A stretch of 64,000 nt of DNA from Natronorubrum thiooxidans (GTDB lineage Archaea > Halobacteriota > Halobacteria > Halobacteriales > Natrialbaceae), in the NCBI RefSeq assembly GCF_900156475.1, contig NZ_FTNR01000006.1, forward strand, positions 1 through 64,000, read 5' to 3'. The position numbers and the translations under genes were made by a program. The first letter of the stretch is position 1; each line of letters opens with the position of its first letter. The notes beneath the pieces were generated by a model. The model ran no database searches and had not been told where the DNA came from. It saw only the letters and a program-made list of their open reading frames with translations. Below are positions 55,506 to 59,786 of the stretch, piece after piece.

Positions 55506-57083
55506 TTATTCGGCGGCGATGACGTCGTCGATGCGGACGATCATCGTCGCGGCCTCGGTCGCGCTTTCGATGGCTTCGCGTTTGACGTCGGCAGGGTCGA
55601 CGACGCCGTGTTCGAAGGGATCAGCGATAGTGACGTCCTCGCCGGTGGTGATCAGGCCGGCTCGACCCTCGGATTCGTGGGCGGCACGAAGGTCCACGAG
55701 TGCGTCGATTGGGTCCTGGCCGGTGTTAGCGGCGAGCGTTCGGGGGACGATGTCGATCGCGTCGGCGAAGGCCGTCACAGCGAGCTGTTTGCGGCCTTCG
55801 ATACCGGCGGCTTCCTCGCGGATCTTGTCCGCGATCGCGATCTCGGTTGCCCCAGCGCCGGGGACGACCTCGCCGGAGGCGAGTGCCGTCGCGACGACGT
55901 CGAGTGCGTCACCGATGGCGCGCTCGAGTTCGTCGACGACGTGTTCGGTGCCACCGCGAACGAAGACAGTGACGGTCTCGGCGGCTGCGCCGCCCTCGAT
56001 GAACGCGAGATCGTCGTCGCCGAAGTTCTCGGCTCGGATGCGGTCGGCCGCACCGAAGTCGGCTTCCTCGAGGTCCTCGAGGGCACCGACGCGACGTGCG
56101 CCCGTCGCGGAGACGATATCTCGGGCGTCGCTGTTGCCGATATTCTCGAAGACGAGGATGCCCTCGCCGGCGAGATACGAGGAGACGCGGTCGTCGACGT
56201 CTTCGGTGGTGAAGACGACATCGGCACCGCTCTCGGCGACTTCTTCGGCGTAGCCGCGAACTTCGCTCTCCTCGGCGTCGATGGCCGTATTGAGCTGGTC
56301 GATCGAGTCGATGGCGTACTCCGCGTCGATATCGCCCGTGCGGACGCCGAGCTCGACGTCGAGCACGGCGATCGAGGCGTCTTCGACCGCCTGAGGCATG
56401 CTGTCGTGGGACGGCTCCTCGTCGAGGACGATTCCGGGGACGAGCTCCGTCGCGTTCGAGGACGCGCCAATCTGGGTGTGGACGGTGACGTTGTCGCGTG
56501 CGACACCAGCGTCGGTTTCGACGTGGCGGATCGCCTCGACGACCGTCTCGGCCAGCGATTCGGCGGTGAGGCCGCCGGTCCCTTTCCCGGTCATGCTCGA
56601 CTTGCCGACCTGTTTCAGGATTTCGTCGTCGACGTCGGCCTCGTTGACCTGCTCGGTGATCGCCTCGAGGGCGATCTCGGACGCCTCGTGATAGCCCTCG
56701 ACGATCGTCGTTGCATGGACGTCCTGTTCGATGAGGTCTTCGGCCTCACCGAGGAGGTTGCCGGCGATGACGGCTGCCGTCGTCGTCCCGTCTCCGACCT
56801 CTTCTTCTTGGGAGTCGGCGACTTCGACGATCATCTGGGCTGCGGGGTGTTCGATATCCATCTCGTTGAGAATGGTTGCCCCGTCGTTGGTGATGACGAC
56901 CTCGCCACCGGAGTCGACGAGCATCTTGTCCATCCCGCGCGGCCCGAGTGTCGTCCGTACCGCTTCGGCAACGGCCTTGCCGGCCATAATGTTCGACGAC
57001 TGGGCGTCGCGACCCTGCGTTCGCTGACTATCCTCGCTCATAATGAACATAGGCTGTCCGCCCATGCGTCGCTGTTGTGCCAT
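55506..57083 (-). CDS. Thermosome (group II chaperonin) subunit
   Basis: 525 residues. Nucleotide motifs [20 protein letters not shown] and GDGTTTA are present and [10 protein letters not shown] near 395 closes the site. It is shorter than the usual 550-560 residues and ends [11 protein letters not shown] without the acidic or Gly-Met tail, similar in length to the third chaperonin subunit of Haloferax. ATG 57083 is 15 nt downstream of the predicted start from TTTATATAG (57118-57126). Regulation by heat is usual for such promoters. Confidence 0.93.
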
Positions 57084-57117: not shown

Positions 57118-57126
57118 CTATATAAA
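57118..57126 (-). promoter_or_regulatory. TATA box of the thermosome gene
   Basis: Minus strand reads AAAAGATTTATATAG, a strong BRE/TATA pair about 40 nt before ATG 57083. Confidence 0.65.
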
Positions 57127-57215
57127 TCTTTTGCTCCCACCCTCGCCCCGTCTGGCGATTGCGCCCCCTCGAGGGTGATCCGTCGGTATCGCGTCAGCGC
57201 TCCCCCGTCAGACCG

Positions 57216-57227
57216 CTCAGCGCTGAG
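57216..57227 (+). promoter_or_regulatory. Perfect 12-bp palindrome beside the zinc-finger gene promoter
   Basis: CTCAGCGCTGAG is self-complementary, 8 nt before the TATATA element of the gene at 57266; the core TCAGCGCT recurs at 57194-57201. Position suits an activator contacting the TFB/TBP complex. Confidence 0.5.
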
Positions 57228-57265
57228 TCACAAAGTATATATCAGTATTCTTGTCTCGTTACTGT

Positions 57266-57409
57266 ATGGTTCGGTATCCTGACGGGCGGTGTCCTGACTG
57301 TGGGGAACGATTATTCGCTCGAGTTGATGGCTCCGTTCGTTGTTCGAACTGCGTCTCGCGTTCTGTGTCGGACAGTGCTAACGAACTTCTCGACAGTTCC
57401 CGTTCGTGA
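57266..57409 (+). CDS. 47-residue zinc-finger micro-protein
   Basis: ATG 57266 to TGA 57407-57409. Residues 9-12 are CPDC and 26-29 are CSNC, a complete four-Cys zinc finger (CPDCG-x13-CSNC), after MVRYPDGR and before a Ser-rich tail. A TATATA box (57236-57241) is centred 27 nt upstream, so a leaderless transcript starts at the ATG. Four spaced Cys in 47 codons of a proteome poor in Cys is hard to get by chance. Small CPXCG-type zinc-finger proteins are a known abundant class in haloarchaea. Divergent from the thermosome gene. Confidence 0.72.
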   Translation: MVRYPDGRCPDCGERLFARVDGSVRCSNCVSRSVSDSANELLDSSRS

Positions 57410-57571: not shown

Positions 57572-58339
57572 TTAGCCGATATACCGCAGGTCGTCGTCCG
57601 TCGGCACGTCCATCTGCTGTTGTTGTTCCATCTCCTGGATCTTGCCCATGACCTCTTCCATCTCGTCGGCGCGCTCGTCGAGTGACTCGTAGTCGAGTTC
57701 GAATCTGAGTATCTCCTCGAGCACCTCGAGCACCGCGCGAGCGCTTTTCGGATCGACCAGATAGCCGCTGGTCTCGCCCATCAGACAGGCAGCCTCGAAG
57801 CCGCGGCGTTCGCCCAGACCGAGCATTAGGCCGGAGACGCCAACGATGCCGCCCGCAGGCTCGTCGTCGCGGAACTCGACGCCGACGTCTTCGAGCCCCT
57901 CGAGCAGCGAGTCGTCGCTGACAGCGCCGATGACGTCGTACTCGTCGATGAGTTCGCCGGTCGGAACACCACCGAGTGCGTACACCTCGGTTGCACCAAA
58001 CTCTTCGGCGATATCGAGGAACGCATCGGTGAGCACGTAGTGGCCCTCGTTGGTCTGGGCCTGATGGTCGCCGGTCAACAAGAGGAGATCCCGGCCATCG
58101 GGAACGGTGACGGCGTACAACTCCGCACACGTGAGCGACGAGACGCCGTCCTCGATACTTACCTGCGGGGGGAACTCCGTGGAGTAGACTCGTCGCACGA
58201 GCGTACTCTCGGCCTCGAGTTCCTCGAGCACGTGCTCGACAGCGAGACTTCCAACATGTCCGACACCTGGCAGCCCCTCGACGAGTACGGGGTCGTCTAC
58301 GTCGACCTCGGCGACTGCGTCGATCTCGAGTTCGTCCAT
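57572..58339 (-). CDS. PAC2-family proteasome-assembly-chaperone-like protein
   Basis: 255 residues. EGLPGVGHVGSLAVEHVL, YALGGVPTGEL and GVSGLMLGLGERRG are the family segments; the C-terminal 50 residues form an acidic coiled coil with a Met/Gln-rich end (KIQEMEQQQQMDVP). Archaeal PAC2 proteins resemble PbaA/PbaB assembly factors. Follows nop10 by 6 nt, hence in the translation operon. Confidence 0.88.
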   Translation of the reverse strand: MDELEIDAVAEVDVDDPVLVEGLPGVGHVGSLAVEHVLEELEAESTLVRRVYSTEFPPQVSIEDGVSSLTCAELYAVTVPDGRDLLLLTGDHQAQTNEGHYVLTDAFLDIAEEFGATEVYALGGVPTGELIDEYDVIGAVSDDSLLEGLEDVGVEFRDDEPAGGIVGVSGLMLGLGERRGFEAACLMGETSGYLVDPKSARAVLEVLEEILRFELDYESLDERADEMEEVMGKIQEMEQQQQMDVPTDDDLRYIG

Positions 58340-58345
58340 ACCATA

Positions 58346-58525
58346 TCAGCGATTGCGACGTTTAAGAGCGCGTCGGTACTCGCCGTGTGGGTCGGTCGGA
58401 TTGAACGGGGCCGGCGCGCTGTTTTCCGCCGGCTCGCCACACTCCGGACACGTCTCAGAAAGGGTATACACCGGGCAGTCGTGGACCTCGCGCCACGCCG
58501 AACACACCCGGATGTCTGACTTCAT
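58346..58525 (-). CDS. nop10: H/ACA RNP component Nop10
   Basis: 59 residues. MKSDIRVCSAWREVHDCPVY opens with a Cys pair, CPECGEPAENSAPAPFNP completes the zinc ribbon, and HGEYRRALKRR is the Nop10 C-terminus. It stabilises the Cbf5 pseudouridine synthase in H/ACA RNPs. Begins 3 nt after the aIF2-alpha stop, the conserved archaeal order. Confidence 0.92.
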   Translation of the reverse strand: MKSDIRVCSAWREVHDCPVYTLSETCPECGEPAENSAPAPFNPTDPHGEYRRALKRRNR

Positions 58526-58528
58526 ACG

Positions 58529-59329
58529 TTATTCGTCGTCCGTTTGTCGCTCGCGGTGGTACTCGCCCTCGCCGCCGTGGCTCTCGATGGCAGCGACCGC
58601 GCGGCGGGCGCTGTCCTCGAGTTGGGATTCGGCGGTTTTGTAGTTGGGCGCTTTCACTTTGATGCGGTACTCGGGGGCTCCGACGTAGCTGACCTCGAGG
58701 TTGACCTCGTCTGGCACCTCACCGTTGCCTTCGGCAGCCGACAGCGCCTCTCGAATGCCGTCGACGCCGCTTGGCGATGCGTTCTCTAAGTCGACGTAGC
58801 CAGTGACGTTGACGTACGGCACCGAGACGTTCTCGCGGGCGGTCTCAACGAGCGATTCGATTTCGTCGTCCGAGAGATCCGTGCCCTCGAGGGCTTCTTC
58901 GCCGTGGATCGCCGCCTGCTTGAACCCCTTATAGAGGCTCCCGTGGGCACCGATCAGTTCGTTGGCGATCGCGGTATAGATCTCGTCATCGACGTCCTCG
59001 CCGAGTGCGAGTGCCATCCAGTTGTCGGCCTTCTGCTCGTTTTTCCACTCCTGAATCTTATCGGAGCGCTGGTGGTCGTTGACGTCTTTCAGCGAGAGAT
59101 CGATCTGCTCGTGGGACTCGTCGACATCGAGGACCTTGCAGACGACGATCTGTCCCTCGCGGACGTGATCGCGGACGTTCTTGATCCAGCCACTCGCGAC
59201 CTCGGAGATGTGGATCAGACCGCGTTTGTCCTGGTACTCCTCGAGATCGACGAAGACACCGAAGTCCTCGATTTCGTCGATCTTGCCGACGACGAGTTCG
59301 CCGGGATCTGGCCAGCCGCTGTATTTCAT
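58529..59329 (-). CDS. eif2a: Translation initiation factor aIF2, alpha subunit
   Basis: 266 residues. N-terminal S1 domain ([35 protein letters not shown]), a helical domain and a C-terminal alpha-beta domain ([19 protein letters not shown]). Part of the aIF2 trimer that carries Met-tRNAi to the ribosome. ATGA overlap with rps27e upstream. Confidence 0.95.
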
Positions 59330-59499
59330 CGTGACTCGACTGTTTCGAGGACCTCGTGGTCGATCTCGGCTTTGCCGCCGGTCGGTCGCGCAAGCGTCGT
59401 GCCACAGACAGCACAGGCGACCTCCGTGGAGGCTTTGCCGAAGACGGTCTGTTCGTTCTCACAATCACTGCATCGAACGCTGTAGAAATTTCCTGCCAT
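59326..59499 (-). CDS. rps27e: Ribosomal protein S27e
   Basis: 57 residues. Zinc ribbon with CSDCENEQ and [11 protein letters not shown] 59499 ([10 protein letters not shown]) is the family start; upstream in-frame codons are in the L44e 3' end. Overlaps aIF2-alpha by four bases; 5 nt after rpl44e. Confidence 0.95.
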
Positions 59500-59504
59500 T
59501 GTAA

Positions 59505-59786
59505 TCACTCCTGGAACTTGAGTCGGCCGGCGCGCCATCCCTCGCGGAGGTGGGCTTTCCCACACTCGCTGCATCGGTACTTGAGGTTGGTCTTCTTGGT
59601 CGGCTTCTCGCCACCGGGCACCTTCGAGAAGCGACCGGAGTTACCGATGGACGAACTGTTGCGCCGCGTACGGCGAGCGTCCCATTTCATGCCCGAGGAA
59701 CGGCCCGAGCGGGCTTTCTCGGCTTCGTGTTCGTGGTGTTCGTTACAGTGCGGGCAGTACGTATTGAATCGGCGTGGCATCTCCAT
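59505..59786 (-). CDS. rpl44e: Ribosomal protein L44e
   Basis: 93 residues. [20 protein letters not shown], then [20 protein letters not shown]: the four Cys bind zinc and match Haloarcula L44e closely. Heads the rpl44e-rps27e-aif2a-nop10-PAC2 operon; divergent from the gene at 59943. Confidence 0.96.

Follow-up and report, generated by a model that had tools for sequence, protein, structure and literature searches.

CPxCG-related small zinc fingers are proteins of fewer than 100 amino acids that carry a CPxCG, CPxCx or CxxCG pattern and, 7-40 residues away from it, a second Cys/His pattern (PMC2253796); micro-proteins of this kind are shorter than 70 amino acids (PMC6562870). In Haloferax volcanii, about 18% of the proteins with 40-60 amino acids are of the C(P)XCG kind (PMC11241148), and deletion phenotypes have been reported for 12 of 16 such genes (PMC6562870). 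Members include Brz of Halobacterium salinarum, the product of its own small gene, which regulates the neighboring gene bop (PMC2253796), and the single-domain proteins HVO_0758 and HVO_2753, both below 70 amino acids. The transcript of HVO_0758 is leaderless (PMC10716476), as are 72% of the protein-coding transcripts of H. volcanii (PMC4983044).

The locus considered here lies in a window of 64,000 nucleotides of Natronorubrum thiooxidans, the whole stretch of DNA that was analyzed, to which all coordinates of this genome refer. It encodes a protein with the following features:

57266..57409, plus strand: coding sequence of the zinc-finger micro-protein, 47 codons and a TGA stop; product MVRYPDGRCPDCGERLFARVDGSVRCSNCVSRSVSDSANELLDSSRS, CPxCG-type, with the finger at residues 1-32 and a variable tail at residues 33-47
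57290..57304, plus strand: CPDCG (residues 9-13), the putative first knuckle of the metal site; its two Cys do not vary across 54 aligned members of the family
57341..57352, plus strand: CSNC (residues 26-29), the second knuckle; its two Cys and its Asn are unchanged in the same 54 members

The preliminary description had pointed to a 47-codon frame with CPDC, CSNC and a Ser-rich tail, and all of these elements are present, the tail following CSNC and ending directly at the stop. Judged by every sequence criterion of the class (PMC2253796), the protein is a CPxCG-related small zinc finger: the second pattern comes 12 residues after CPDCG, and the length of 47 amino acids is within the limits for both small zinc fingers and micro-proteins. 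It thus shares with Brz the size, the two cysteine patterns at the prescribed distance and a small gene of its own, and with HVO_0758 and HVO_2753 the single-domain C(P)XCG organization. HVO_2753, however, has four motifs, and HVO_0758 carries a helix of about 10 amino acids at its N-terminus and is found in over 200 haloarchaeal species, whereas the N. thiooxidans protein has eight residues before its first Cys and its closest type was found, among the genomes searched, only in Natrialbaceae. Its kind is already known and abundant in haloarchaea, and what it adds is a subfamily without a Pfam or NCBIfam model. Zinc-ribbon families of these two databases gave only sub-threshold matches (best 17 bits against cut-offs of 25-27), and a sequence search of the PDB returned only weak, cysteine-driven matches.

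An ORF this short may arise by chance, and we considered how often this would happen. Scanning the window for ATG ORFs of 30-70 amino acids with a CPxCG-like pattern and a second CxxC at 7-40 residues yielded only this ORF and ribosomal protein S27e, while across 60 dinucleotide shuffles such ORFs averaged 0.03 per window and never exceeded one. A search of related whole genomes, which the preliminary description had proposed as a check, returned orthologues at the same locus, that is, in the interval between the thermosome and PAC2-family genes, in three Natronorubrum genomes (N. sulfidifaciens, N. bangense and G002), with 85%, 83% and 74-80% identity to the N. thiooxidans protein. Another orthologue, in N. 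halalkaliphilum, lies slightly further from the thermosome gene. In ten pairwise comparisons, pN/pS for codons 2-31 of the finger lies within 0.04-0.35 and third positions carry an excess of the changes, so that the finger is under purifying selection. For tail codons 33-47 the range is 0.5-1.3, with most pairs close to 1; values from the N. halalkaliphilum tail carry little meaning, as that tail cannot be aligned. The tail thus drifts, its Ser-richness being under no visible sequence constraint. In the three nearest orthologues (L009, L010 and L011) a fifth Cys is found near the C-terminus, at codon 45 (DSCRS, DGCRS and DDCRP), where N. thiooxidans has Ser. Such a freely drifting tail, as well as the patchy presence of the gene across the family, is what might be expected if the frame had no function and were either a product of chance or the decaying remnant of a paralogous finger. 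This explanation can hardly be credited, since it is contradicted by the pN/pS of the finger in all ten pairs, the low number of chance ORFs, the stop at codon 48 kept in four species and the conserved promoter block described below. The frame at 57266-57409 is, on these comparisons, a real gene.

The same frame is open further upstream, to a TTG at 57251. We favor the ATG at 57266 as the start, because the N-terminus MVRYPDG is conserved and the distance to the promoter fits. The promoter elements are as follows:

57225..57241, plus strand: promoter block GAGTCACAAAGTATATA, a BRE-like stretch with a TATA box; four species agree at 16 of its 17 positions, whereas the flanks have diverged
57236..57241, plus strand: TATA box TATATA, its center about 27 nt upstream of the ATG

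The block is identical in three species and carries a single change in the fourth. Transcription is predicted to start at or just before the ATG, giving a leaderless mRNA, so that the promoter at leaderless spacing put forward in the preliminary description holds up, with its start site deduced from the spacing. Of 49 homologues that start with ATG, 22 have a perfect TATA-type hexamer whose first base lies at -33 to -29, compared with 6 of 1071 ATGs of the window (0.6%) that have one in the comparable zone; this contrast is overstated, as the control comprises all ATGs, which are mostly inside GC-rich genes. The sounder signal is that, over the 60 nt inspected, the hexamers cluster at -33 to -29.

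The genomic neighborhood could suggest a different role. The features relevant to this question are:

55506..57083, minus strand: thermosome subunit gene, divergent neighbor of the zinc-finger gene
57118..57126, minus strand: thermosome TATA box, distinct from the zinc-finger promoter in the promoter alignment
57149..57162, minus strand: 14-mer GCAATCGCCAGACG, upstream of the thermosome TATA box; identical in eight of nine Natronorubrum genomes and one base short in the alignment columns of the ninth
57572..58339, minus strand: gene of the PAC2 / proteasome-assembly-chaperone family, convergent neighbor of the zinc-finger gene

The PAC2 gene belongs to a minus-strand cluster at 57572-59574 with rpS27e, eIF2-alpha and Nop10, found in the same order in the relatives fetched. 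The zinc-finger and thermosome genes are indeed divergent, as the preliminary description had noted, with about 180 bp between the start codons. Together with the precedent of Brz and bop, in which a small zinc finger regulates its neighbor (PMC2253796), this arrangement could mean that the small protein controls the thermosome gene locally and is co-induced with it under stress. Direct adjacency of the two genes is, however, confined to four of ten genomes of the genus, and half of the genus lacks the zinc-finger gene near the thermosome. Starting from PAC2, the genes that follow at the N. halalkaliphilum locus (L043) are a second small finger, which belongs to a different type, then the zinc finger, an amidohydrolase-like gene (P0002; Pfam Amidohydro_2) and the thermosome; the start codon of the amidohydrolase gene abuts GCAATCGCCAGACG, a 14-mer that N. 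thiooxidans still has. All six genus members without direct adjacency have the amidohydrolase; each of the six matches adjoins PAC2 on the thermosome side, and the thermosome itself is seen in five. The four genomes in which the two genes adjoin gave no amidohydrolase match at any position. Because the amidohydrolase gene lies between the two genes in N. halalkaliphilum and is absent from all genomes in which they adjoin, deletion of the intervening gene is the simplest account of how the zinc-finger gene came to adjoin the thermosome. Conserved adjacency to a target gene, as expected for a Brz-type regulator, is thus not what is observed: the adjacency is that of four genomes out of ten, after gene loss. 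Moreover, the stretch running from the 14-mer up to the thermosome start codon, with promoter and leader, hardly differs among nine genomes, whichever gene is the neighbor. Searching the whole genome for a regulon of the GAGTCACAAAGTATATA block revealed no second exact copy, and four matches with up to three mismatches against two for a reversed control. Given the gene loss, the near-constant thermosome promoter and the unrelated neighbors of relatives elsewhere, none of which has a thermosome beside it, nothing supports the stress co-regulation suggested in the preliminary description, and a local thermosome regulator is very improbable. The 14-mer could itself be a regulatory site of the thermosome gene; it has a single perfect copy in the genome, and 73 matches with up to two mismatches compared with 23 for the reversed control.

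Beyond this locus, the presence of the zinc-finger gene across the family is scattered. The neighbors of seven distant relatives of the same type, located on other contigs, have no gene in common, except for G036 and G056, which represent the same locus; this fits a self-contained unit. RYPDG.C..CG.R is invariant in the 11 closest relatives. Two related finger types of Natrialbaceae, one ending in VWCPNCALFRP and the other of the form YPYGRCxxCGERLYEH..GGYxCxNC, have the same Cys spacing, a CxNC second knuckle and about 36-66 amino acids, but differ in the N-terminus, linker and tail and form separate groups in the tree. The VWCPNCALFRP type occurs between PAC2 and the thermosome in several Natrialbaceae (L043:2564-2680, L095:1773-1883 and L042:2751-2861, all on the minus strand), and N. 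thiooxidans has one related copy of it, on contig 47 (L002/L049). The PAC2-thermosome locus seems to gain and lose small fingers. Two further relatives, on plasmids of Haloterrigena alkaliphila and Natronococcus occultus (L114:3001-3111 and L115:3001-3111), have no gene listed at the match in the PLSDB table, which is itself incomplete.

None of the 54 aligned family members departs from the four Cys or from the Asn of CxNC, an invariance partly built in, as the relatives were found by similarity; the selection test is free of that bias. Loss of the cysteines in relatives, which would have spoken against the proposed finger, was seen in none of those found, and a four-cysteine metal site is accordingly a likely feature of the protein. 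Binding of zinc is likely, not certain: of 14 purified H. volcanii proteins of this kind, nine bound zinc and five were zinc-free, three of the latter holding another metal (PMC11241148). The AlphaFold2 model has a beta-hairpin followed by a helix and is confident only around the knuckles (pLDDT about 85); confidence for the run on seven sequences was moderate (mean pLDDT 74.5, pTM 0.42), and AlphaFold2 cannot tell which such proteins have metal-binding geometry (PMC11241148). A Foldseek search against solved structures gave no match at E<=0.001. The weak matches it gave, all at E>1, involve the zinc ribbons of larger enzymes, NudC and DNA ligase among them. Since zinc ribbons often bind proteins and strong constraint is confined to the finger, these matches might hint at a dedicated subunit or inhibitor that acts post-translationally on one enzyme complex and is not a gene regulator. 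We consider such a role unlikely, if conceivable, as the structure matches are not significant and the relatives have no conserved genomic partner.

Taken together, these results favor, with a probability of roughly 0.65, a monocistronic gene with its own TBP/TFB promoter, a leaderless mRNA and, as its product, a stand-alone micro-protein with a C4 zinc ribbon, of the CPxCG type found in haloarchaea. The gene-level part of this reading draws on conservation, selection on the finger, the invariant cysteines and promoter spacing, and metal binding and mode of action are argued from tested relatives. By analogy, the function would most likely be that of a stand-alone regulatory or adaptor protein. 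Transcription from the TBP/TFB promoter would produce the leaderless monocistronic mRNA, and C9, C12, C26 and C29 of the product would hold one Zn(II) or possibly another divalent metal. The folded N-terminal part of about 32 residues, which is net positive (six Arg against four Asp/Glu), might then act as a small adaptor that sits on nucleic acid or on a partner protein, the tail being probably a disordered or solubilizing extension. Such an adaptor may tune the expression of unlinked genes, an effect that Brz, HVO_0758 and HVO_2753 exert either directly or by an indirect route; regulation of a neighbor, known for Brz, is not indicated for the 47-residue protein. A more elaborate scenario, in which leaderless micro-fingers of the RYPDG type duplicate specifically in Natrialbaceae as lineage-specific regulators and one copy, brought beside the chaperonin promoter by gene loss, comes under its influence, is speculative and improbable.

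The chaperonin adjacency, explained by loss of a single gene, illustrates that neighborhood alone can suggest a false link. At the same time, a class of micro-proteins for which few functions are established gains a well-supported gene from this locus, together with a subfamily that no model covers and that has a clear signature at its N-terminus, MVRYPDG-x-C-x2-CGER.
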